Source of the DNA: Bacteroidales bacterium
GTDB lineage: Bacteria; Bacteroidota; Bacteroidia; Bacteroidales; UBA932
Reading direction: 5' to 3'
NCBI GenBank assembly: GCA_017454265.1
Contig: JAFTDJ010000043.1
Coordinates: forward strand, 1-56,138
DNA length: 56,138 nt
Position numbers and translations under genes: made by a program. Under the pieces are notes generated by a model that had not been told where the DNA came from, did no database searches, and saw only the letters and a list, made by a program, of their open reading frames with translations. Numbering within the stretch: position 1 is the stretch's first letter; the number at the start of each line of letters is the position of its first letter. Shown here one piece after another: positions 2,536 through 13,977 of this stretch.

Positions 2536-3177
2536 TTATACCAGCAGCAGTTGCGCGTTGCATCCTAATACCTTGCTAAGGTTTTGAATGCTATCAGCCG
2601 TTGCGCTCCTCAAGCTCCGCTGGTTTTGCTCATAGCCCCTGATTGACCGCAACGTGCTGCCAGATAATTCGGCTAATTGCCTTTGCGTCAGTCCGGCATT
2701 CAGGCGTGCCCTCTTCAGTGGATTGTGCCTTTGTTGACCTGCATGAATGCAATTCAAGGCGAATTGTACGGTTTTCGAAAGGTCTGCCTCATGTAGCGTG
2801 GAATAACGCCGGTACAGTGCCATGATGCTCAGACCGTTCACGTTCAAAGCTACATGGTCCATATCGAGGTACCAGCTGATGTAAGCCATTGACCATCCGG
2901 TCCAATACTCCGGGCTTCCCATATCTATGAGCGCTTCCAACTCGGGCAGCTCTTTCCCGGTTTGCTTTGCAATTAGGCGTGCGAGTTCTGCTCCTGACAT
3001 ACCCGCAACGTACTTTGGATTGGCATTGTACATGGATCTTGAGATACCGCTGGCGAGAAACCGGGCCCAGAACAGCTCAATGTCCTCTCTACAGGTATTG
3101 ACGGCGTAATCCAGCATGGCACCCATGCCGGACATTGCGTCGTCCAGATAATCAATATTATAGGCGTGCGTCATCAT
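2536..3177 (-). CDS. XRE-family antitoxin-like protein with C-terminal helix-turn-helix
   Basis: The 213-residue protein has an unfamiliar helical N-terminal part (about 1-140) and a C-terminal Cro/C1-type helix-turn-helix at about residues 155-205 (ARLNAGLTQRQLAELSG, then SLRSATADSIQNLSKVLG). It overlaps the 3' end of the DUF3990 gene by 20 bases, so the two are translationally coupled, toxin first. The expected role is to neutralise the ADP-ribosyltransferase-like partner and, through the HTH, to repress the shared promoter at 3848-3868. The start is ATG at 3177 or 3174. The pairing is strong evidence; the mechanism of neutralisation is inferred. Confidence 0.75.
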   Translation of the reverse strand: MMTHAYNIDYLDDAMSGMGAMLDYAVNTCREDIELFWARFLASGISRSMYNANPKYVAGMSGAELARLIAKQTGKELPELEALIDMGSPEYWTGWSMAYISWYLDMDHVALNVNGLSIMALYRRYSTLHEADLSKTVQFALNCIHAGQQRHNPLKRARLNAGLTQRQLAELSGSTLRSIRGYEQNQRSLRSATADSIQNLSKVLGCNAQLLLV

Positions 3178-3826
3178 TGCTCCATTTTTCTTTCAATATA
3201 TCTGAGAGGAAAACAGCGTCGGATGCCGGGCTTTCCTGAAGAATTGTTCTATAGTCCTGACGGGCCGTCCTGTCCCGGTACATCCTCTTCGGATAATAGA
3301 TTGATGCGTCAACGGGTTCTGCCTTTATGAAATACATACGCTCGAAGGCCTCCTTGCTTTTTATGACCACCTGCTCACCTAGCTTTCCTGGTTTCATTGC
3401 CCGCTTAAGCTGCTCTAACGTTATTCCGTTTGCCAGAAATGCCTTCGAAAAAGAAAAGTAGGAATCATCGGCCCTGTATCCGGTGATGATGTCGTATCCC
3501 TTGTAATCGGGGAGGAAATTGTCGAGCAGGTATTTCTTTCCCTGAACGGACAGTGGTGTAGAGAGGTCGAACGTCCTGTTCTCCAGCAGGATGGCCAGCC
3601 AGTTCAAGATGTTGTACTGTCCGTCGTTCAAGTAGAGCGTACTTAAACCTTTATCGTCAATGGCATAATGATTGGCAAAGCCGTTATCCTCTGACGCGCA
3701 AGCCCATTCCTTTGCAAGGTCAGGTTCCTTTGTGCAATACAAACCGAGCCCGTAATCGTTTCTGAGGTTTCCCCCTCCGAATACAGGCTTTTCTACTATT
3801 AAGTTTGATCCGTGATAGAGTTCCAT
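3158..3826 (-). CDS. DUF3990 protein, ADP-ribosyltransferase-like toxin
   Basis: The 222-residue product opens with MELYHGSNLIVEKP and has NDYGLGLYCTKEPDLAKEWA at about residues 23-42, the signature of DUF3990 proteins, whose fold is related to ADP-ribosyltransferases. The HGS motif near the start and the G-x-G-x-Y-x-T segment are the expected NAD-binding positions. It is the first gene of a two-gene unit with an XRE-type partner, the typical layout of a DUF3990 toxin-antitoxin module. The -7 box on this strand is at 3861-3868. The cellular target is unknown. Confidence 0.75.
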   Translation of the reverse strand: MELYHGSNLIVEKPVFGGGNLRNDYGLGLYCTKEPDLAKEWACASEDNGFANHYAIDDKGLSTLYLNDGQYNILNWLAILLENRTFDLSTPLSVQGKKYLLDNFLPDYKGYDIITGYRADDSYFSFSKAFLANGITLEQLKRAMKPGKLGEQVVIKSKEAFERMYFIKAEPVDASIYYPKRMYRDRTARQDYRTILQESPASDAVFLSDILKEKWSNDDARL

Positions 3827-3847
3827 ATCAATATAAATGAGTCACAC

Positions 3848-3868
3848 TGTGGTGTTACCACAAAGATA
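3848..3868 (-). promoter_or_regulatory. promoter with palindromic operator of the toxin-antitoxin pair
   Basis: On the minus strand TATCTTTG (plus 3861-3868) is a perfect -7 box. The palindrome TGTGGT-GTT-ACCACA (3848-3862) overlaps its end and the expected transcription start, 22 bases before the toxin ATG. This position fits autorepression by the HTH antitoxin. Confidence 0.55.
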
Positions 3869-4265
3869 TTCGATAATATTGAAATAAACAAGAACAATTA
3901 GAAAGAATATCCCATTTGTCTGAAAATTCCGACAAAGGCTTTTTGGGGATCACCCGATAGAACGGGTGGAGTAGAGTCAATATGTTGAGTGAAGAGGCCG
4001 TTTGCACTATATAGGTACTGAAAGCTGATGACATCGGGAGCGAATATGGGCTTTCCGCTCCCGAATAGCCGTTTTTGTGGCTCAACGGGAGTAATTCGGG
4101 CTCATCTGCTCCCATTCTGCCCGAGAAAATGCCTCTCGCCGCTGTTTTGCCGTTTCGCGGGCGAAGTCGCGGTAAAAGAATACTCAGGCATTCACAGCTC
4201 CACCAACTATTTCCGCTGTTCCCTTTTTTGAATCCTTCAAAATTTGAATTCCACATTAATATTAT
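3869..4265. other. gene-poor stretch with several inverted repeats
   Basis: I see no convincing gene in these 400 bases; a long minus-strand frame (3855-4256) crosses the toxin promoter and has no family features. Structure is present. CACCCG/CGGGTG lies at 3951-3968. A perfect 9-base pair of arms TCGGGAGCG/CGCTCCCGA is at 4034-4064, and its right arm can also pair with CGGGAG at 4086-4091 (inner AGCC/GGCT). CGGGC/GCCCG lies at 4097-4123. The first two 9- and 6-base pairings are mutually exclusive. Confidence 0.4.
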
Positions 4266-4298
4266 TATATTTGCGTCAACAGTGTCCGCACTGTTGAC
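4266..4298 (+). promoter_or_regulatory. promoter and start-site hairpin of the TIR operon
   Basis: TATATTTG at 4266-4273 is a perfect -7 box. It is followed directly by GTCAACAGTG-TCCG-CACTGTTGAC (4275-4298), a perfect 10-base hairpin with a 4-base loop placed on the expected transcription start. It may be an operator or a 5'-end stabilising stem-loop for the operon that begins at about 4310. Confidence 0.55.
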
Positions 4299-4336
4299 AT
4301 AAAGCGAAAGTGTTTTCGTTTGATCCTTTTACGGAA

Positions 4337-4570
4337 ATGTGGAAGTTTCTATTTAGTTGGAAGGATTACGGATATGCTTACCGCTCGTGCATTGATTATG
4401 TTGTGTGCCCTTTTTCAAGGGTTGATACTCCATATAATGCCGAGTGTGGGGTATCAGTAATTTATCTCCAACACGGTTCTTCCACAACCTCTGTAAGGAT
4501 AAATGAAAGTGGCTCCACACTTTTTGTTGTATATACATTACCCTTGGGGTCGGGGGAATATAAAGTATAA
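4337..4570 (+). CDS. small hypothetical protein, first ORF of the TIR operon
   Basis: The frame encodes 77 residues from ATG 4337, or 86 from GTG at 4310 within a small CGAAA/TTTCG stem. It is Tyr-, Ser- and Val-rich with no recognised domain or signal peptide. It ends 5 bases before the FISUMP gene and lies directly behind the strong promoter at 4266, which is the main reason to call it. An untranslated leader is the alternative. Confidence 0.35.
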   Translation: MWKFLFSWKDYGYAYRSCIDYVVCPFSRVDTPYNAECGVSVIYLQHGSSTTSVRINESGSTLFVVYTLPLGSGEYKV

Positions 4571-4575
4571 AGTGT

Positions 4576-5661
4576 ATGGCGAAAGCAAACGCGTCCACAT
4601 GTAAGCCCATCTTGTTGTTGCTAGTTGCATTTCTGGGAATAATATGTACAGAATGTGGAGAGAAAACCAACTCTGAGCAGGTCAAATCCAAACCCAGCCT
4701 TCCTCAGGGAATTACAATGACCGTTACAGCAAATAAAGAACCAATAGTTCATTTCCGAGACGCTAGTGCAGGAGGAATAATTACACTTAAAGGCGACTTG
4801 GATTTACTCCCCATAGATTTTAAGAAAAACATTAACGTTGACATCTATTATGGGACTGACGAGTTCGAACTGAAGAATAAAGCTACAGCTGTACTGGAAG
4901 ACACGGAAGAGAGCTTTGGTGCGCTAACCATCTCTTTTACAGCTAGGCTAAATGGTCTTGATGATGGAGAAGTCTATTACTTCGGTATAAAAGCCAATTA
5001 TGGTAAAGAATCTCCTGTTGAGGTTGCATCTGTTAAATTTTTTACCTTACCCGATGGGGCGGTTGATTTGGATTTGCCTAGTGGTAATTTGTGGCTATCG
5101 AATAATCTTGGGGCCACATATCCCGAAGAAAGCGGTGATTACTATGCATGGGCTGAGACGGAGCCCAAGAAAACGAACGGTTTGTACAATTGGTCCAGTT
5201 ACAAATGGTGTGATGGATCATATGACAAATTAACAAAGTATTGCCTGTCTCAATGGGTTGGGATAGTAGATAACAAAAACACTATAGAAAGAGAAGATGA
5301 TGCGGCCACTAAAAAAATGGGTGGTAGTTGGCACATAGCTTCTGAGCTGGAATGGAGTGAATTATTGACAAAATGTCAACGAGAATCAATTAAATATAAT
5401 GGTGTGCCGGGGGTTCTTTTTAGAAGTAAGAATAACCCGAACGATAATAAAAAAGTAATTTTCATACCTGCTTCCGGGTATTATTCCGGAGGGCAAATAT
5501 CAGATGAGTATAGATGCTGCTATTGGTCTTCCACATGTTGCGAAAGTTATTCATCATATGATGCGTACTACTTTACTTCGGAGTATTCTTTTTACTCTAA
5601 AATGAGTTACTCAAGTCGTTGCTTAGGCTTATCTATACGACCTTGTCGTGCGAAAATATGA
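4576..5661 (+). CDS. secreted FISUMP-domain protein, possible lipoprotein
   Basis: The 361-residue product has an N-terminal signal (hydrophobic PILLLLVAFLGIIC at about residues 12-25, followed by two cysteines, so lipidation is possible but the lipobox is not canonical). A fibronectin-III-like beta domain follows at about 45-155. The C-terminal half (about 165-361) is a FISUMP (Fibrobacter succinogenes major paralogous) domain: VDLDLPSGNLWLSNNLGA near the start, YYAWAE, then YWSST and a final SIRPCR. The last 46 residues are dominated by Tyr, Ser and Cys where relatives tend to carry Asn, which raises the possibility of a hypervariable region. The TIR gene follows directly. Such domains are thought to bind ligands at the cell surface; the ligand is unknown. 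Confidence 0.75.
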   Translation: MAKANASTCKPILLLLVAFLGIICTECGEKTNSEQVKSKPSLPQGITMTVTANKEPIVHFRDASAGGIITLKGDLDLLPIDFKKNINVDIYYGTDEFELKNKATAVLEDTEESFGALTISFTARLNGLDDGEVYYFGIKANYGKESPVEVASVKFFTLPDGAVDLDLPSGNLWLSNNLGATYPEESGDYYAWAETEPKKTNGLYNWSSYKWCDGSYDKLTKYCLSQWVGIVDNKNTIEREDDAATKKMGGSWHIASELEWSELLTKCQRESIKYNGVPGVLFRSKNNPNDNKKVIFIPASGYYSGGQISDEYRCCYWSSTCCESYSSYDAYYFTSEYSFYSKMSYSSRCLGLSIRPCRAKI

Positions 5662-5686
5662 TGGTGAAAGCGGCAGGAGTATGCTA

Positions 5687-6646
5687 ATGCACTATGATGT
5701 CTTCATAAGTTATTCACGGCGAGATACTGCCATAGCGGATAAAATCTGTGAGATTCTATCCGCCAATGGTTTTTCGTTTTTTATAGACAGGACTGGGGTA
5801 AGTGCCGGAGTTAGTTTTACTGAGGTCATATCCAAAGCTATTGATGAATCAGAAATTTTCTTGTTTCTGGCAAGTGAAAATGCATATCGATCAAAGTTTA
5901 CTATTGCTGAGGTTTTTTATGCTTTCAGAAAAAAGGCGAAGGGGGCGATAATCCCGTATCTTTTGGATAATAGCAGAATGCCGTCGGAATTGGAATTTTT
6001 GCTCAGCACAACCAACTGGCTTGAAATAAGTAAGGCTCCGATTGAGTCGGTTTTTGTTTCGGAAATCGGAAAGGCTCTGCATCGTCCATTGTTAAATACA
6101 GCAACATCAACTGGCAGAAGAATTAATAAATGGATATGGCCGGTCATCCTTATTGTCGCTGTATTAGGAATATCCATTTTTGTGGCCTGGTTGTTTAAGA
6201 ATGAAAGGATACCTACTATTACCTTGGGCTCTACTGACAGTACGGAGATAATATATAAGAAACAACTAGAGGCCTCGGATTCTTTATTGCAAAGAGCTCT
6301 TTATCTAGCCACGCTTCCCGGAACAATAGAGATAACAACTGAACAAATAGCAGCGCTTAAAAATGCACGAGATCTTGCTTGCAACGCAGATAGCATTAGG
6401 AAATCGAATCCAAGAATTTCTTTAATAGACTCTGAATTAGATGCTTCGTATTTGTCGAGCACTGCACAAACTCAATTGGACTCGATCAGGCAGGCTTGGA
6501 TTAATTATGCGCATGAAGCCTTTGAGTTGTATGATCTGACACATTTGGAGTCTGAGGCCCAAAATGCTCAAATATGTGCTAGTGTAGTGCGTCAAATCGA
6601 GCCGGACTCAGTATTGGACTATATTTGTAGTAATCTAGTAAAATGA
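5687..6646 (+). CDS. TIR-domain protein with a single transmembrane helix
   Basis: From ATG 5687 the product is 319 residues. Residues 2-115 are a TIR domain: YDVFISYSRRD at the start, FFIDRTGV near 31, and Glu75 in SKFTIAEV, the position of the catalytic glutamate of NAD-cleaving TIRs. A membrane helix lies at about 150-170, and a helical, presumably periplasmic region of some 150 residues follows. ATG 5687 is preferred because AGGAG stands 7 bases upstream and relatives begin close to YDVFISYS; ATG 5681 or GTG 5648 would add 2 or 13 residues. It overlaps the PEGA gene by ATGA. NADase or signalling activity and a defence role are inferred from the family, not shown. Confidence 0.85.
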   Translation: MHYDVFISYSRRDTAIADKICEILSANGFSFFIDRTGVSAGVSFTEVISKAIDESEIFLFLASENAYRSKFTIAEVFYAFRKKAKGAIIPYLLDNSRMPSELEFLLSTTNWLEISKAPIESVFVSEIGKALHRPLLNTATSTGRRINKWIWPVILIVAVLGISIFVAWLFKNERIPTITLGSTDSTEIIYKKQLEASDSLLQRALYLATLPGTIEITTEQIAALKNARDLACNADSIRKSNPRISLIDSELDASYLSSTAQTQLDSIRQAWINYAHEAFELYDLTHLESEAQNAQICASVVRQIEPDSVLDYICSNLVK

Positions 6647-8928
6647 TAAAACGAGTACTTTTAGCAATTTTTCTGTTATTTGCTTCACATCTTATTTTTG
6701 CTCAAATGTCCTTTGATGTTCGATATAATCAGGCGACTTCATTTGTAGGCTCAAAGGATTATGACAAAGCCATTAAAATACTCGAGGCGGCAAAAAAAAT
6801 GCCTGGTTTAACGCAGGAGCAGGAATTAAAAGCTGATAAGCTGCTTGTACGATGCAAGAGCTTAAAGCAGAAAAGCAAAGCTTTTACTATCTCAAAAAAG
6901 GAATTGGCCATTCCTCCGGAAGGTGGACTTGATTCTTTAGATGTGTTTTCATCGCTCCCTTGGGCAATTGTTAACCAGCCAGTATGGTGTGATACATATC
7001 GTAAAGGGAATAAGCTATTTGTATTTGTGAGCGAAAACGAGGCTCCCAAGAAGAGGGAAGGTAAAATAATATTACAAAATGCTGGGGCGAGTAAAAAAAC
7101 AATTGTCAGCATAATTCAGGAATCAGTTCTTTTAAAGCCGCAGGATATTATCATCAAGACGTCTCCAGGCGGTGCGTCTCTATTGATGAATGATGCGGCT
7201 CTTTCTAGTGACGAGGAAATTACCATTCCGTCAGGCGAGCACAGGTTCGTAATCCGAAAAGATGGATATGAGCCTGTTGACACAACGCTAACTATTTACA
7301 ATAATGGTGGAGATTTGTTGGAGTTAAGATTTAAATTGAAGCCTAAATACGCAAAGGCAGTTTTGAATATTTATTCTGAAGATGATCTTCCACTCCAGAG
7401 CGTTCCCAAAGTGATGATTGACAGCACAGTTATTGATTTGAACGCTTCTGACTCTCTGAGCTTTGATTCCAGTCATCCTATTACGTACTTATCTATGTAT
7501 AATGATGGTGTCATCCCCATTTCTCCAGGAGAGTACGTCATTAATGTGAGTGCAGATGGTTATTTTGAACGACAGAAGCATGTACTTCTGTTTCCTGCCG
7601 ATTCCATAGTTATTGACTTTCCTCTGAAGCCAAAGAAAGGGTTTCTTACATTGCGACCGTCTGCCGATGAAAACGGAATAGCTTCAGTATATATAGACGG
7701 AACTCCATATGGTCAGTTACAAGACTCGATACGTGTTTCTTTGGCAGAAGGCAATCATATAATATCTGCTGTTCAAGACGGATTTACTATGACAAGTGAC
7801 TCAAATGTGTATATGCAGGCCGGTCATGATAGTACGTACTCATTAGTGATGGAAAAAACATATACGTGTTTTATTACATCTACGCCTGTTGCTTTTGTTT
7901 ATGTTGATGGTGAACTTAAAGGAGAAACACCGATACGATTATCATTGTCGGGCAGTGTACACAAAGTGGATATTGAAAAAGAAGGCTATTTAACGTCCTC
8001 TTTTGATACGTCAATTATTAATGAACATCCTTCTGTCGATGGAGAAAAGCGTGTTGTTGTCAACTTGGCCAAAAAATACCCTTATACCATTTCAAGTGAT
8101 GAAGAAGGACAAAGAATTAAGCTTACCGGAAAGCTAGACAAAAAAATATATGTCGATAGCCTTAAAACGCCAGCAGTTATAGATCTCCCTCTTGGCCAGT
8201 CATATCGAGTTGAGTTGTTTAATCATAAAAATAAAAGAGTGTTTATGGGTTCTTTTACATTCAATAATGAAAACCGTAATGTATTTAAAGCTAATACACT
8301 AAACAGAATGGTATTAGTTGAGGGGAGTTTTAATGTTCGAAATGCTGATTCATTTGGATTGGTTATAGATGGTAAACAATACTATATGCCCATAGACATT
8401 AATCTAGCAAAAATCAAGCTTCTACCCGGACTATCAACATCTTGTTTATCTGCAGAACTATTGTTTGAGAAAAAGCACTCTGAGTTATACAATACGTATT
8501 TCCGACAATATGTTTACAACGTCATTCCTTTTCTTTCGCCATGTTTTACAAATTATGATTTCAGGATAGGAGGCGCAATTACGAGAGGCATAGATGTGGA
8601 TTTATTAGGGTGTGTTGCTGCGTACCTCCCAATTACTAGACTGCTAAACAGTCAAAACTCGAGGCTTTATCACCCGTCATCATCCGGCGTGAATTGTTTC
8701 GTTGGGGTTGAGTTGACGTCCGGACTACCCATTGCTAATCTCTCACTTAGGGCAGGTTACCGCTTTGGCGAATTGTCTGTGAATATTACAAACGTTATCA
8801 ATAATTATTCCACTACTTATACTTCTGACGAACGGTGGAAAATGTCTTTGAATACGTTTGAGATTTCCCTCGGCATCTCATTGGGAACCATGAAATCCTG
8901 CGGCCAGAACATCCTCCGTGTATTCTGA
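6643..8928 (+). CDS. PEGA-repeat envelope protein with TPR-like and BACON-like regions
   Basis: The 761-residue protein has a signal peptide (cleavage near IFAQ, residue 21), a TPR-like helical hairpin (25-70), a BACON-like beta domain (about 77-160) and at least four PEGA-type repeats (about 165-465) recognisable by PSGEHRFVIRKDGYEPVD, SPGEYVINVSADGYF, AEGNHIISAVQDGF and SGSVHKVDIEKEGY. The last 150 residues are barrel-like beta sequence. PEGA modules are extracytoplasmic and are often found beside signalling proteins. The gene overlaps the TIR gene by 4 bases and the sigma gene by 1 (TGATG), so all three are probably translated together. Base composition changes sharply from AT-rich to GC-rich within its last 20 codons. 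Confidence 0.8.
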   Translation: MIKRVLLAIFLLFASHLIFAQMSFDVRYNQATSFVGSKDYDKAIKILEAAKKMPGLTQEQELKADKLLVRCKSLKQKSKAFTISKKELAIPPEGGLDSLDVFSSLPWAIVNQPVWCDTYRKGNKLFVFVSENEAPKKREGKIILQNAGASKKTIVSIIQESVLLKPQDIIIKTSPGGASLLMNDAALSSDEEITIPSGEHRFVIRKDGYEPVDTTLTIYNNGGDLLELRFKLKPKYAKAVLNIYSEDDLPLQSVPKVMIDSTVIDLNASDSLSFDSSHPITYLSMYNDGVIPISPGEYVINVSADGYFERQKHVLLFPADSIVIDFPLKPKKGFLTLRPSADENGIASVYIDGTPYGQLQDSIRVSLAEGNHIISAVQDGFTMTSDSNVYMQAGHDSTYSLVMEKTYTCFITSTPVAFVYVDGELKGETPIRLSLSGSVHKVDIEKEGYLTSSFDTSIINEHPSVDGEKRVVVNLAKKYPYTISSDEEGQRIKLTGKLDKKIYVDSLKTPAVIDLPLGQSYRVELFNHKNKRVFMGSFTFNNENRNVFKANTLNRMVLVEGSFNVRNADSFGLVIDGKQYYMPIDINLAKIKLLPGLSTSCLSAELLFEKKHSELYNTYFRQYVYNVIPFLSPCFTNYDFRIGGAITRGIDVDLLGCVAAYLPITRLLNSQNSRLYHPSSSGVNCFVGVELTSGLPIANLSLRAGYRFGELSVNITNVINNYSTTYTSDERWKMSLNTFEISLGISLGTMKSCGQNILRVF

Positions 8929-9584
8929 TGACCTTCGCAGAAATCATACAGAAACTCCGCGAACGGGACGAACGGGTGACCAGGTGCTTCTTCTTCTGGG
9001 AAGGGCCTACGATGGAACGCATCCTGGAACTCCGGCGTACCGACCCTGCGCGGGCCGTGGGCCTGCGTGCTCCGGTGTGCAACACCTGCCGCCCGGCGCT
9101 CTTGAAAGTCCTGCATACGCTCTACGGCACGGCGCACTTCGACTACAACGAGAAAGTGTCCGACTTCTGGTTCTACCTTCTCAAGGACGACAAGCTAGCT
9201 TCCATCAAGCAACCGGACGCCCTGATGGGATGGATAGTGAGCACGGCCTACTACTTCTTCCTGCACGAGAAGGTGATGGCCGACAAATCGGCGAGGGACA
9301 CGGACTCGGTTTCCCTATCCAACATGGGAGACGATGTAGAAGACGACAGGGACAGGGCCGGCGTGCGCGACTTCGTGCAGCAGGTGCTTGACGCCATGCC
9401 CAACCGTACCTACGCCCAGATACTCGATGAGGTAACTTTGGAAGTAGGGCAGTACAAAGGGAAAGAAAAAGCTGAAAAAATGCGTACATTCGCAGAAAAG
9501 CTTGCCATTCCCATTGACAACCTTTACGTAAAGGTGTCGCTTGCAAAAAAGCAGTTCAAAGAAACCGCGCTAAAGTTAAGTTAA
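8928..9584 (+). CDS. ECF-like RNA polymerase sigma factor
   Basis: The 218-residue protein has an arrangement like region 2 of ECF sigma factors at about residues 55-115 (DYNEKVSDFWFYLLKDD, then ALMGWIVSTAYYFFLHEK) and a C-terminal helical region 4-like part (about 145-215, ending VSLAKKQFKETALKLS). Similarity is weak, and the N-terminal 40 residues are unusual. The call is strengthened by the next gene, which starts with an anti-sigma-like segment. It is GC-rich, unlike the upstream PEGA gene with which it shares a stop/start overlap. The candidate target promoters are the four TTAGA-N16-CTCTTAYAG sites in this window. Confidence 0.6.
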   Translation: MTFAEIIQKLRERDERVTRCFFFWEGPTMERILELRRTDPARAVGLRAPVCNTCRPALLKVLHTLYGTAHFDYNEKVSDFWFYLLKDDKLASIKQPDALMGWIVSTAYYFFLHEKVMADKSARDTDSVSLSNMGDDVEDDRDRAGVRDFVQQVLDAMPNRTYAQILDEVTLEVGQYKGKEKAEKMRTFAEKLAIPIDNLYVKVSLAKKQFKETALKLS

Positions 9585-9590
9585 GCTTAA

Positions 9591-10601
9591 ATGATTATGG
9601 CACAGAAATATAACATATCCAGCGAAGTGCTTGACCGTTACGTATCCGGTCAGGCTTCACTCGACGAGATTGCTCTCGTGACACGCGCACTCAAGGAAGA
9701 CGAAGACCTGAGGAAGCTCGTGGAGATAATGGAAGGGCTGAACAAGAGCGGCTTCCTGCAGGAAAACCGCGACCTGCCCATGTCCGATTCGGCAGCGGCC
9801 TCGGAAGGCAAACTTTGCGACGTGCTGTGCGAGCAGTACATCCTTCGCGAGTATCTGGGCGACAAGGCGGGGGCGGACTACGTAGCCGAGGCACAGGACA
9901 ACCGCTGGCTGAAGGAGAGCGGCACGCCCCTGCACAACATGGGCCGCCTGCTGGAAAAGTACGGTTTTACTGTAGCGCGCAAGTATAACTGCAGCCTTGA
10001 CGATATCGGGCAGGCTCTGGAAAACAAACACAGCGTGATAGCGGTGGTCGACTACGGGCTGCTGTGGTACGGGGAGCCCGACGGAGAGTTCCATGCCGTG
10101 GTGTGTCTGGGCCTTGCGGAAGGTGCCATCCGCATATACGACCCCGCGGCCGGCGACCACAAGCGCTACCCCGTGGTGGATTTCTGCAAGGCATGGGACT
10201 GTTCGCAGAACTACCTAGTCTGTGCCGGAACCGACAGCCTGGAATACATCCCGCACCCCATAGACGTGAGCGACGTGCGGCTCGACGACGAGCTGCTGGA
10301 GCTCACCGAGGCCATAGCGGAGAACGCCCACGAAGTGTGGGCCAACCAGCGCCGTAGTGAGGGCTGGACTTACGGTCCCAAGCGCAACGATGCCCTCAGA
10401 CAGCACCCCGACATGGTGCCGTATTCCCGGCTCGACGAAGGGGAGAAGGACTACGACCGTGTGATGGCTTTCAACACCTTGCGCCTGGTGAAGAAGCTTG
10501 GATTCAACATCTCCCGCCGTTACACCCTGTACTGTCCCAATTGCGGTGAGTTTGTTGAGGAGGGCATGAACTTCTGCCCCCATTGCGGAGAAAAGCTCTG
10601 A
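9591..10601 (+). CDS. anti-sigma-like / C39-like peptidase / RyR domain / zinc ribbon fusion
   Basis: The 336-residue protein combines four parts. Residues 5-50 (YNISSEVLDRYVSG, then ALKEDEDLRKLVE) resemble the short N-terminal segment of Bacteroidetes anti-sigma factors. Residues 73-215 look like a papain/C39-type fold, with Cys76 or Cys80, His168 (EFHAVV) and Asp184 (YDP) as candidate catalytic residues. Residues 224-306 are a RyR domain (ENAHEVWANQR, EGWTYGPKR, MVPYSRL). Residues 315-332 are a zinc ribbon, CPNC and CPHC. It follows the sigma gene by 6 bases. The expected job is control of the sigma factor by a ligand sensed through RyR or by proteolysis; that is inference. ATG 9597 is an alternative start. 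Confidence 0.8.
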   Translation: MIMAQKYNISSEVLDRYVSGQASLDEIALVTRALKEDEDLRKLVEIMEGLNKSGFLQENRDLPMSDSAAASEGKLCDVLCEQYILREYLGDKAGADYVAEAQDNRWLKESGTPLHNMGRLLEKYGFTVARKYNCSLDDIGQALENKHSVIAVVDYGLLWYGEPDGEFHAVVCLGLAEGAIRIYDPAAGDHKRYPVVDFCKAWDCSQNYLVCAGTDSLEYIPHPIDVSDVRLDDELLELTEAIAENAHEVWANQRRSEGWTYGPKRNDALRQHPDMVPYSRLDEGEKDYDRVMAFNTLRLVKKLGFNISRRYTLYCPNCGEFVEEGMNFCPHCGEKL

Positions 10602-10603
10602 AA

Positions 10604-10665
10604 AACTTTGTCTTTTGCTATTAGATTCCGGCACCCTCGGCCTCTTACAGACAAAAGACAAAGTT
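10604..10665 (+). promoter_or_regulatory. copy B of shared motif enclosed by a perfect 14-base inverted repeat
   Basis: TTAGA (10621-10625) and CTCTTACAG (10642-10650) are 16 bases apart, as in copies A, C and D. They are enclosed by AACTTTGTCTTTTG (10604-10617) and CAAAAGACAAAGTT (10652-10665), perfect arms. The element starts 2 bases after the RyR gene stop and ends 15 bases before the next ATG. It may act as promoter and, in the transcript from upstream, as a stem-loop. Confidence 0.5.
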
Positions 10666-10680
10666 AACACAAAGACTTCT

Positions 10681-11415
10681 ATGAATCGTATATCTTTATT
10701 AATCAGCCTGGCTATGTTCTCCTGCGTACAGGCAAGTGCCCAGCATCCTGTCTCTATTAAAGAGTTTCTTGCAAAGAAGCAATCGGGAACCCGAGTGGAC
10801 ACTGTGAAAGTTTTGTATGATAATAACGAAATGCTTAATGACTATTGCTTTGTAGCGGTTGACGAAAGCGGGGAGATGAAAGTGCAGCTTGACAAGACAG
10901 ATTTAGACTCCCTTAAGCAGGAGCTTAGAATTCTTGACATCCGGCCTGGTGATACCTTGGTGATTGCCGGGCATCGTACTGCTGCAAAAAAAATAAAGGC
11001 AAAGAAGCCGGCAATGATTTCTGCCAGGATACAGTCCATGACAACCGGTCCGAATCATGCAGAAATGAAACGCGCTGTCTTTTATCTGGATTCCGGGCCG
11101 ATGTTCATGGGACAAGAGCCAAATGCTTTTTCAGCGTGGGTGAATGCTCAACTTAGGTATCCTGAGTCATCCAAAGCTGCTGGTAATCAAGGTACAGTAC
11201 TGCTCTCATTCAGAATTGGGAGCGATGGAGTAATAAACAATATTGAGTTGCTGGAGTCTTCGGGAGACATCGCGCTAGATGCGGAAGCATGCCGGGTGGT
11301 TGCCTGCAGCCCCGCATGGGCTCCTGCATATGCCTACGGCAGCCCGATTGCAATCACTTTTACCTTTCCTGTAATTTTTAGATTAAACGGCGATAATGAC
11401 AATTATAGGCAATAG
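10681..11415 (+). CDS. secreted TonB C-terminal-domain protein
   Basis: From ATG 10681 the product is 244 residues, with a signal peptide (MNRISLLISLAMFSCVQASAQ). Residues about 150-240 match a TonB C-terminal domain: FSAWVNAQLRYPESSKAAGNQG, VLLSFRIGSDG, then a GSPIAITFTFPVIFRL ending. Classical TonB proteins have an uncleaved anchor and a Pro-rich spacer; both are missing, so this is one of the TonB-C proteins of unclear function that are frequent in Bacteroidetes. Motif copy B lies 31 bases upstream. Frames reaching back to 10615 would have to start within the inverted repeat and are less likely. Confidence 0.75.
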   Translation: MNRISLLISLAMFSCVQASAQHPVSIKEFLAKKQSGTRVDTVKVLYDNNEMLNDYCFVAVDESGEMKVQLDKTDLDSLKQELRILDIRPGDTLVIAGHRTAAKKIKAKKPAMISARIQSMTTGPNHAEMKRAVFYLDSGPMFMGQEPNAFSAWVNAQLRYPESSKAAGNQGTVLLSFRIGSDGVINNIELLESSGDIALDAEACRVVACSPAWAPAYAYGSPIAITFTFPVIFRLNGDNDNYRQ

Positions 11416-11747: not shown

Positions 11748-11777
11748 TTAGATTTTTGAAAAGAGCTCCTCTTATAG
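11748..11777 (+). promoter_or_regulatory. copy C of shared bipartite motif
   Basis: TTAGA (11748-11752), 16 bases, CTCTTATAG (11769-11777), with TTTTGCTG before and GCAAAAA after, ending 17 bases before the ATG at 11795. It has the same geometry as the copies at 383, 10621 and 12382. Confidence 0.5.
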
Positions 11778-11794
11778 GCAAAAAACGAACAATT

Positions 11795-12313
11795 ATGCAT
11801 TGCTACAATCACCCCGATCAAGAAGCCGTTGCTCAGTGCAAGCACTGCAACCGTTATTACTGCCAAGAAGAGGCCAGCCAGTTCATAAATGGTATCTGTC
11901 CTGAATGCCAGATGCAGATCAGGCGAGAACTTGAATATGCTCAGGCTCAAAAGAAAATGTGGTACAGGAATAACCTCAAACTGTTTTTGGTTAGTATTGT
12001 CATCGGCTTTGTTTTCGCTTTGCTGTCACTTGGCGAATCCTTCGGTAGCGCTTTATTTTTCGGTCATTTTGTAGGCACGATTGTGTTGGCCTGGAGGTAT
12101 TGTAAACATTTTTATCAGAAATTAGACGAAAAGTATCGTTTCTTCTTTCGCTCTATCTTCTTCTTTCATTTTGGACGCTTGGTCAAACGCTTTATTTTAA
12201 CTGGCTTTATTGTTTTTGCAACACTATTTGTTCCAGTGCCTTTGCTTCATTCTATATACCGTACCTTTATAAAAGACCGTGTTGTTGGACTCTTGTCGAG
12301 GGTTGCTGCATAA
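11795..12313 (+). CDS. B-box-like zinc-finger membrane protein
   Basis: The 172-residue protein starts with MHCYNHPDQEAVAQCKHCNRYYC, and CPEC follows at about residue 39. This is the Cys/His pattern of the short B-box-type zinc finger that bacterial membrane proteins often carry at the N-terminus. Two or three hydrophobic segments follow (about 65-85, 90-105 and 140-165). No enzymatic motif is seen. ATG 11795 was chosen because it puts the zinc finger at the very N-terminus and lies 17 bases behind motif copy C; a frame from 11756 would overlap the motif. The gene ends just before a strong terminator at 12332. Confidence 0.7.
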   Translation: MHCYNHPDQEAVAQCKHCNRYYCQEEASQFINGICPECQMQIRRELEYAQAQKKMWYRNNLKLFLVSIVIGFVFALLSLGESFGSALFFGHFVGTIVLAWRYCKHFYQKLDEKYRFFFRSIFFFHFGRLVKRFILTGFIVFATLFVPVPLLHSIYRTFIKDRVVGLLSRVAA

Positions 12314-12381: not shown

Positions 12382-12411
12382 TTAGTTTTCCTCTGTTTTT
12401 GGCTCTTATAG
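12382..12411 (+). promoter_or_regulatory. copy D of shared bipartite motif
   Basis: TTAGT (12382-12386), 16 bases, CTCTTATAG (12403-12411), then ACAAAAAA; the ATG at 12430 is 18 bases on. It is the only copy with a change in the first element (T instead of A at the fifth base). It sits directly behind a terminator, so the next gene needs its own promoter, which supports the promoter reading. Confidence 0.5.
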
Positions 12412-12429: not shown

Positions 12430-13977
12430 ATGAAACACATTAAAACAATCCTTGCGGCAGCCGCACTACTCGTCATTTCCTGCACCAAAACTCTTGAACC
12501 CGATTACCCTGCGGAGCAGCCCGCTGCGGAAGACATCACCGTTGTCTGTACCGGTGGCAACCCATACTCACTGGAAAACATGCGAGCCGCACTCGAGGCC
12601 CTGTGCGGGAGCGGATCTGGCCTGGAAGCCAATATGCTCTACGTGCGCTTCCTTCCCAAAGACTCCACGGATCTCGACCTGCTGGAAGAACTCGAGCTTT
12701 TCGACCATCCACTCACGGACGAATGCGACGCTCTCCGGTCCGGAGGTACCGTAGCGGAGCTGGGCTGGCAGTATGCCGCCGTGCCGGTAGATTATTCTTT
12801 CCCTGCCGGCCTTGAATGTGAAGTGCTGGACGAGTGCTATCTCCCTGACAGTACTCCCGGAACCCGTGCGGCAGGCTCCGTCTCTGCAGAAGATCTGGAA
12901 AGGGCCGCAATAGCCAGGGCTACGGGTACCCCTGCAACCAAGGCGATGGCGCCCCTCTCGCCGCGCGGAAGCGTGATGATAGAAAGCCCCTCCGGCAACG
13001 TACCTGTGAAGGGTATCAAGGTGCGCTGCAACTACTTCCTGCGCACTGCGGTTACCTACACGGACGAACAGGGCAACTTCAGCTTTGGCACAAGCTTCCT
13101 GAACAAACCTTCCGTGAGCATCGTTTTCTCCAACAAGAAAGATTTCACAATCTGGGACGGCCTTCTTGTCGTTGGCGGAGCATCCCGCAGCTGCGGAAAA
13201 TACACCGGCGGAAGCATGAACGTAAGCCTAAAGCCCGACACGGCGCCCTGGAGCTGGGCTGTGATAAACAATGCGGCCTACGATTACATCTGCGCATGCG
13301 AGAAAGGTGGCCTTCCCCTGCCGCCCTCCAGGCTCAAGATAATGGTTTTCTCCGGTGGGAACGACGCTGCCAGCTGCGCACCCATGCTCAGGCGCCTTCC
13401 TTCAGTGAAGCTCGATACGAACAGCGGACTGCTCAACATCATAGGCAGCGTGGTCACGGTGCCCGTGAGCGCCGTAGCCCTGTTCTTGATGAAGGCCGCC
13501 CTGCCAGACCTCATCTTCTGTCCAGGCTGGATGTGCAGTAAAGGATCGTACCGGCAGCTGTATTACCATGCGTGGCACGAGATGGCCCACACCAGTCATT
13601 ACAGCGTGGCGGGCAACAAATACTGGGTAGATTTTGCCAGCCACATCATGACCCATTTCGATTACGGTAAAAAGTCTGACGTGAACGCAGACGTGATAGA
13701 CCTTGGCGAGTCCTGGGCAAACGCATATGAAAACTACGCCTACTACGTAGCCAACAGTTCACGCTATTTCGCAATCTATGGCTTTTCCTGCGGCGCCGAG
13801 TTCAATATCAAGCCGCTTAGCGACCTTATGGAAGACGGAATTATTACCCCCGCCCAGATGCTCAACTGCATGACAAACGAGGTGCGCAGCGTGCCTCAGC
13901 TGTGCGGGGCGCTGCAGAGCGCTTATCCTGCGTCAGCCGGCAAAATCCGGGACGTTATAGGCAATTATAAAATCTAG
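12430..13977 (+). CDS. zincin-like (HExxH) lipoprotein with carboxypeptidase-regulatory-like domain
   Basis: The 515-residue product has a lipoprotein signal (LLVISC, Cys18). A beta-rich region at about 185-265 (GSVMIESPSGNVPVKGIKV, then TDEQGNFSF) looks like a carboxypeptidase regulatory or SpaA-like fold. His383-Glu-Met-Ala-His387 in AWHEMAHTSHY is the zinc-binding HExxH motif, and the downstream Asp/Glu-rich DLGESWANAYENY is a candidate for the third ligand and Met-turn region. The overall protein is not from a family I can name. It is expected to be a membrane-anchored peptidase or peptidase-like protein. Its stop codon overlaps that of the convergent MBL gene as CTAG. Upstream motif D links it to the sigma-factor cluster. 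Confidence 0.65.
   Translation: MKHIKTILAAAALLVISCTKTLEPDYPAEQPAAEDITVVCTGGNPYSLENMRAALEALCGSGSGLEANMLYVRFLPKDSTDLDLLEELELFDHPLTDECDALRSGGTVAELGWQYAAVPVDYSFPAGLECEVLDECYLPDSTPGTRAAGSVSAEDLERAAIARATGTPATKAMAPLSPRGSVMIESPSGNVPVKGIKVRCNYFLRTAVTYTDEQGNFSFGTSFLNKPSVSIVFSNKKDFTIWDGLLVVGGASRSCGKYTGGSMNVSLKPDTAPWSWAVINNAAYDYICACEKGGLPLPPSRLKIMVFSGGNDAASCAPMLRRLPSVKLDTNSGLLNIIGSVVTVPVSAVALFLMKAALPDLIFCPGWMCSKGSYRQLYYHAWHEMAHTSHYSVAGNKYWVDFASHIMTHFDYGKKSDVNADVIDLGESWANAYENYAYYVANSSRYFAIYGFSCGAEFNIKPLSDLMEDGIITPAQMLNCMTNEVRSVPQLCGALQSAYPASAGKIRDVIGNYKI

Follow-up and report, generated by a model that had tools for sequence, protein, structure and literature searches.

Two described CRISPR systems lead from an immune trigger to a sigma factor. 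In the type III system CalpL/CalpT/CalpS, the path runs from a nucleotide messenger through a SAVED sensor and a Lon protease to cleavage of an anti-sigma factor and an extracytoplasmic function (ECF) sigma factor (PMC11417357), and in the type III-E system CASP (Csx29/Csx30/CASP-sigma) the protease is of the CHAT type and is RNA-guided (PMC10028731). Among predicted conflict systems, EACC2-caspase systems carry ECF sigma factors (PMC8195603), and PEGA effectors occur in iSTAND and GAP1-N2 (PMC7159879). A separate line of work concerns the RyR domain. Phage RyR proteins (RyDEP) bind 2'/3' cyclic ADP-ribose (2'/3'cADPR), the signals of immune TIRs. One of them cleaves 2'/3'cADPR by means of His75 and Asp117, with Trp78 and His100 also touching the ligand; of eight further phage homologues, six bind the signals and none cleaves them, others acting as sponges, and human RyR Repeat12 binds adenine ligands (PMC13232231, a 2026 preprint). 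Here we describe a six-gene operon at positions 4310-10601 of contig JAFTDJ010000043.1 (assembly GCA_017454265.1, a Bacteroidales bacterium); the whole stretch analyzed, 56,138 nucleotides long, is called the window. The operon brings together a TIR protein, a PEGA protein, a sigma factor, and a RyR protein. We propose, with a probability of roughly 0.5, that it is a signalling island that converts a TIR-made nucleotide derived from nicotinamide adenine dinucleotide (NAD) into a transcriptional response.

How might such an island work? A PEGA protein of the envelope, translationally coupled to the membrane-anchored TIR protein, would switch the TIR on through its outer part. As is expected from its family, the TIR would then turn NAD into an ADP-ribose-type signal. 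This signal could bind the RyR domain of a soluble protein that also carries a putative anti-sigma domain (ASD) and a C39-like peptidase domain, and in which the corresponding residues are in place. Binding would activate the peptidase, whose fold and catalytic residues are recognizable, so that the N-terminal ASD is cut or freed. The released ECF sigma factor is predicted, on the strength of a shared motif, to read promoters of the form TTAGATT-N14-CTCTTAYAG that flank the operon, leading to expression of envelope and secreted proteins. The purpose may be a remodelling of the envelope as a defence against phages or rivals.

Central to this proposal is the RyR domain (10239-10523, plus strand; Pfam 7e-30), which matches both the PF02026 profile and the fold and is 54% identical to a Bacteroides RyR structure. 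Bacterial RyR domains are listed in domain surveys in nucleotide conflict contexts. In the phage sequence record, H75, W78, H100, and D117 of gp78 correspond to His247, Trp250, His272, and Asp289 of the window protein with identical, ungapped spacing. An alignment of the window protein with 64 of its 79 relatives (n = 65) has His247, Trp250, and Asp289 in 65/65 sequences each. Judged by these residues, the host RyR domain of the window should in principle be able to hold a TIR product, and it is probably the receptor for that product, a role that the preliminary description of this locus had overlooked.

Does RyR belong with TIR when the sigma factor is missing? Six family loci and the G103 locus, whose contig ends after the TIR gene, have a TIR with no sigma gene at the locus, and in 7/7 of these sigma-less loci an open reading frame (ORF) with a RyR match lies at most 160 bases from the TIR or PEGA gene. 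In L065 and L067, which are near-identical, the RyR match adjoining TIR/PEGA is to a divergent protein of 378 residues; a small gene that clearly encodes RyR stands 2.2 kb away. Since RyR accompanies TIR at all seven, the link between the two is independent of the sigma island. TIR and RyR are thus partners, the sigma-linked RyR being one version of the pairing.

The sigma-linked form is itself widespread. A scan of one genome per species returned 172 relatives of the window's RyR protein, of which the best 80, representing 79 distinct loci, were kept (some contigs were numbered twice; L140 and L059, for example, are the same contig). All carry Bacteroidales or other Bacteroidia labels except L200 ("Clostridiales"), and many come, by their titles, from gut or rumen assemblies. 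One of them, L207, belongs to the complete genome of Prevotella communis E15-14 and has TIR genes along with sigma-RyR. The sigma gene stands immediately upstream of the ASD-C39-RyR gene in 78/79 loci, and L210 has a longer ORF with a sigma match instead. A TIR domain is found in 57/79 loci, and in 35/43 of those of at least 20 kb, compared with 0/20 control stretches (20 kb each, from 14 genomes). For an independent comparison, 149 family genomes were scanned with Pfam TIR_2; 39 of them have a match, with 54 matches in all, and the four family genomes with a sigma-RyR pair (G000, G041, G052, and G109) all have one, that of G109 lying 16 kb away. The three closest relatives of the window RyR protein (63, 60, and 59% identity) each have a TIR in the island, in three arrangements, and two of them share the same FISUMP protein. 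The preliminary description had made recurrence of TIR-PEGA-sigma-RyR in other genomes the test of a system, and the outcome favors one. What recurs, far above background, is the co-occurrence of TIR, RyR, and sigma; gene order is not conserved, and the two units, TIR-PEGA and sigma-RyR, are found apart or rearranged. Neighbors of other family members include a TIR with a SIR2-like stretch (below cut-off), nSTAND1, a dynamin-like GTPase, and kinase-transglutaminase genes, which supports a conflict setting.

Two other arrangements were seen among these loci. A second TIR cassette, consisting of a TIR with a repeat-like tail and exported proteins, occurs at L136:2600-9297 and L059:3847-10367 (minus strand); the two are alike on visual comparison and lie on opposite sides of sigma-RyR, upstream in the one relative and downstream in the other. 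In 45/79 loci (L061:7802-9877, L150:6860-9430, and others) there are proteins 480-1000 residues long that have a RyR-like C terminus and lack a C39 or anti-sigma segment. Most of those listed have N-terminal membrane helices, three of six scanned have an RCK match just under the Pfam cut-off, and only 21/66 have His, Trp, and Asp at the RyDEP spacing. Their architecture makes RyR-gated channels possible.

Turning to the proteins of the operon, the TIR gene (5687-6646, plus strand; TIR_2 5e-19) probably starts at ATG 5687, in which case it does not overlap the FISUMP gene. Helix prediction gives a cytoplasmic TIR domain, a single membrane helix, and a C-terminal domain. Its Glu E88 (numbered from the GTG start) is invariant in seven aligned sequences and aligns with a Glu of the Cat1 TIR; we presume this motif Glu to be catalytic, putatively so in the window protein. 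The partner gene (6643-8928, plus strand), identified by Pfam and alignments, encodes a signal peptide, a short helical repeat, BACON-like and PEGA repeats (the BACON match being below the Pfam cut-off), and a C-terminal region with a terminal Phe, where an outer membrane barrel is suspected. TIR genes of the window type, which share the same C-terminal domain, overlap the PEGA partner by 4 bases in 8/8 loci that have both (the window, the six family loci, and L137), and a 4-base overlap also joins the TIR gene of L138 to a form of the partner without PEGA. Outside this count are L153, where a TIR of another type lies 17 bases before the PEGA gene, and L135, where the PEGA gene stands apart from its TIR genes.

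The product of the next gene (8928-9584, plus strand) is a divergent ECF sigma factor; on its own it matches nothing significantly in Pfam or NCBIfam, and two of five homologues exceed the NCBIfam cut-off. Compared with solved structures, a family profile of 18 sequences matched over positions 7-183 of 191 (E-value 2.8e-5), covering the sigma-2 and sigma-4 regions. Its neighbor, at 9591-10601 on the plus strand, is one gene for a four-domain protein, ASD-C39-RyR-zinc ribbon. The ASD (9591-9788) is called putatively from its position after the sigma gene; a segment homologous to it occurs in the next ORF downstream of sigma in 17/19 loci, and three relatives have a weak zf-HC2 match there. Compared with solved structures, the ASD profile gave nothing convincing (best E-value, 0.16), and the FecR-type N-terminal anti-sigma domain PF16220 was dropped as its identity after 0 matches in 11 genomes. 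The second domain (9801-10238) matches the C39/papain-like fold and has Cys76, His168, and Asp184. Cys76 and His168, which we take to be catalytic from the alignment and the family motif, are present in 65/65 sequences each; at position 184, 53 sequences have D, 9 have N, and 3 have E. The zinc ribbon (10524-10601) was recognized by domain scan.

Relatives of the sigma gene in L122, L125, L128, and L130 head other operons, with a partner protein that lacks RyR and with genes for a dynamin-like GTPase, an HSP70-like protein, a double-GTPase-like protein (below cut-off), and fn3 or nSTAND1. At three loci (L061:11562-12440, L063:9593-10471, and L124:10401-11282), the anti-sigma-like gene is followed by one for an M48 peptidase whose C terminus is a zinc ribbon, and zinc-ribbon ORFs of the same size recur in other loci.

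What might the sigma factor control? The motif TTAGATT-N14-CTCTTAYAG was defined from a block common to the upstream regions compared, and sites with at most one mismatch were called strict. The window has four, all on the plus strand, as against 0 in 100 shuffles, and each precedes a plus-strand gene that is a putative regulon member. The site at 383-412 lies before an ORF for a small outer membrane protein (OMP)-like barrel (439-918; OMP_b-brl 0.011, below cut-off), and that at 10621-10650 before the gene for a secreted protein with a TonB C-terminal domain (10684-11415; TonB_C 5e-17). The remaining two, at 11748-11777 and 12382-12411, precede genes for a protein with a Cys/His-rich N terminus and two membrane helices (11798-12313) and for an exported protein of no Pfam family (12430-13977) with an HExxHxxH motif that is presumably zincin-like. 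Only one further strict site exists in the whole window genome, making five. In the L136 and L138 genomes there are two each, all at the sigma-RyR island, and L137 has the motif with a spacing of 15 directly before its sigma gene and a single one-mismatch site elsewhere in the genome. No strict site occurs in eight genomes outside the window's sigma clade, namely six of the same genus without a RyR-protein match (sigma was not searched separately in these) plus G041 and G052, with sigma genes of about 30% identity. An ATG follows closely behind each of the 11 sites that were read out (one has two mismatches), and at 10 of them it opens an ORF of roughly 100 codons or longer. Homology links the OMP-like genes that follow sites in the window, L136, and L138 (E-values 1e-12 and 2e-8), so at least one target is conserved. 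A motif trial with no preset pattern recovered a TTAGA/CTCTT pair in the window and in L138; its excess over shuffles is one site, which 11 other loci match or exceed, and its distinctive point is that the same pair came from two loci. Motif searches around the other loci gave no second convincing motif. As far as sequence can tell, the motif is specific to the sigma clade and supports gene control by the sigma factor, a claim of the preliminary description that has thereby gained ground.

The fifth genome site (G000:C20:386-415, L236) is found where a different contig ends, and the frame behind it has only 34 codons; the ends of contigs C20 and C22 may be neighbors. Around the site behind the window's RyR gene, a 14-base inverted repeat at 10604-10665 can fold into a hairpin (-24.5 kcal/mol), which could serve as terminator, operator, or both. 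A near-identical leader of about 30 bases stands directly before the start codons of several genes (L139:12657, L139:17259, and L141:8925) and might represent an RNA element or a recurring piece of promoter.

The motif is not found upstream of the window's core operon, even at up to four mismatches, which argues against simple autoregulation there, frequent as this is among ECF sigma factors. The core operon appears to be run from a housekeeping-type (Bacteroidetes-type) promoter, TTG-N19-TATATTTG (4244-4273, plus strand; pattern scan), called by the standard consensus, so the cell would already contain sensor and switch when the stimulus arrives. Just behind it, a perfect 10-base inverted repeat (4275-4298, plus strand; sequence and fold) marks the probable transcript start, as an operator or leader hairpin. 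The six co-oriented plus-strand frames described earlier are real. The first (4310-4570) is a doubtful gene, with 0 homologues among 361 ORFs of 21 stretches and no Pfam match above cut-off. The second (4576-5661) encodes a FISUMP-like protein (FISUMP 0.01) that, from its N-terminal hydrophobic stretch, would be secreted or a lipoprotein. It had been cast as a sensor, a role that is conjectural; homologues stand beside sigma-RyR in L137 and L138, and in L138 the gene has its own motif site, which suggests an output there instead. The FISUMP, TIR, and PEGA genes have a GC content of about 0.40 versus 0.55-0.59 in the sigma and RyR genes. The operon is thus a mosaic, and its two halves may be recently joined. 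Upstream, two overlapping minus-strand genes (2536-3826) look like a toxin-antitoxin or defence pair, one presumably helix-turn-helix-like and the other presumably resembling DUF3990; L066:15513-15995 is a relative of the latter. A tRNA search of the window found none.

Several explanations compete with a sensing island. RyR could be an off-switch that hydrolyses or soaks up the TIR signal against self-harm, leaving the sigma factor under some other input to the C39/anti-sigma domain. The His/Asp dyad with which a RyDEP protein cleaves 2'/3'cADPR is kept in the window protein and all 65 aligned sequences, other phage homologues are sponges, and RyR-only ORFs, present in 27/79 loci, could serve this end. 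We nevertheless consider it unlikely: in the preprint 0/8 further homologues cleave though 6/8 bind, so the dyad does not imply catalysis (PMC13232231), and a degrading domain needs no fusion to a peptidase and the sigma factor's partner, a fusion that suggests a receptor. Alternatively, the sigma-RyR pair might serve as a sigma/anti-sigma system for envelope stress, with RyR responding to a housekeeping nucleotide (ATP, ADP-ribose, or NAD state) and TIRs being separate defence cargo of a gene-rich island. The adenine ligands of human Repeat12 would suit this (PMC13232231), as would the envelope or exported nature of the regulon candidates and the RyR-less sigma relatives heading operons with a dynamin-like GTPase, HSP70, or nSTAND1, but the 7/7 sigma-less loci in which RyR adjoins the TIR type speak against mere cargo, and we regard the idea as improbable. 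Could the TIR be a plain suicide enzyme, triggered via PEGA, that depletes NAD, with sigma-RyR co-transcription setting dosage only? Bacterial TIRs can deplete NAD, and the GC jump from 0.40 to 0.55-0.59 would fit halves perhaps recently joined. TIR lies beside RyR again and again across loci, however, and each of the three closest relatives has a TIR gene at its sigma-RyR locus, which makes this explanation highly unlikely.

Against the sensing island itself stand a number of points. The ligand and the NADase, protease, and sigma activities are predictions, and RyR proteins may destroy the signal instead of sensing it. The position of His272 is His in just 38/65 sequences, and the ASD has no significant match among known anti-sigma families. 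At two mismatches, the motif is commoner reversed (39 matches over 12 genomes) than real (24), for which reason only strict sites count, and a wider trial gave nothing convincing outside the window's sigma clade. The detectors used for TIR, sigma, and RyR had the loci's own ORFs as training material, a bias toward the loci over the controls. In 22/79 loci no TIR was found within the stretches examined; for the eight of at least 20 kb, seven genomes have a TIR elsewhere and one, that of L198, has none. Absences from the window genome, which is 76% complete, are weak. The structure model of the PEGA protein is unusable (three sequences, pLDDT [predicted local distance difference test] 51, residues 534-761 below 50), so the barrel is no more than suspected; of the earlier idea that an outside signal reaches the TIR, the topology fits (one TIR membrane helix, a signal peptide on the partner), and the poor model lends it nothing.

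If the sensing island is real, TIR immunity would have a reversible branch that works through transcription, with a sigma factor at the end of the circuit; known TIR immune signals act via effectors that kill or stop the cell. Host RyR receptors would be the cellular counterpart of the RyDEP family and would speak to the long-standing question of direct cADPR action on ryanodine receptors, and the promoter motif makes the circuit testable by a simple reporter. A bolder version, tentative and in our view somewhat doubtful, is a widespread Bacteroidales TIR-to-RyR route, the counterpart of the animal link between cADPR and the ryanodine receptor. Cyclic ADP-ribose made by TIR would be sensed by host RyR, the ASD-C39-RyR protein would cut its own anti-sigma domain and fire the ECF sigma regulon, and a second type, with membrane helices, an RCK-like part, and C-terminal RyR, may gate an ion channel.

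How does the island compare with the systems introduced at the outset? It resembles CalpL/CalpT/CalpS in the logic of messenger, sensor, protease, anti-sigma, and ECF sigma factor, with unrelated parts: RyR stands for SAVED, C39 for Lon, and TIR for Cas10 as signal maker, the protease and putative ASD share a single protein, and the operon lacks a CRISPR part. Membership in the CRISPR-linked sigma systems was dropped on the domain scan, since the ten window proteins scanned have no SAVED or Lon domain (CRISPR was not searched for elsewhere in the genome). With CASP, it shares an immune-triggered protease, an inhibitor of an ECF-like sigma factor, and sigma motifs inside its own locus, but the CHAT protease is RNA-guided, with no nucleotide messenger, and its parts are unrelated to the window's (PMC10028731). 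EACC2-caspase, iSTAND, and GAP1-N2 are likewise predicted immunity operons that include a sigma factor or a PEGA domain; their cores are unlike the window's, and the words RyR and C39 are absent from PMC8195603 and PMC7159879.

Thoeris offers a TIR domain as the probable maker of ADP-ribose signals, as the preprint describes it (PMC13232231). The window differs in its sigma factor output, in a membrane-anchored TIR paired with a PEGA protein, and in that no ThsA-type effector was found: SLOG, SIR2, and Macro are absent from all ten window proteins covered by the scan, which did not take in the minus-strand genes at 2536-4256. Membership in Thoeris was dropped, a ThsB-type TIR being rejected as well (ThcB4, 47.8 bits versus 220; Pfam ThsB_TIR, 14.5 versus 21.2; PADLOC ThsB matches partial). 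A literature search, which left most subscription papers outside, turned up no description of a TIR/RyR/sigma system or of a path from TIR and RyR to a sigma factor. RyDEP has the same RyR fold, with His/Trp/His/Asp at equal spacing, but these are viral inhibitors (PMC13232231), and the window's RyR is a host domain fused to C39 and a putative ASD. Thus, sensor-protease-anti-sigma-sigma logic (from CRISPR) and TIR signalling are already known, and the promoter-like motif TTAGATT-N14-CTCTTAYAG at sigma-RyR loci is new.

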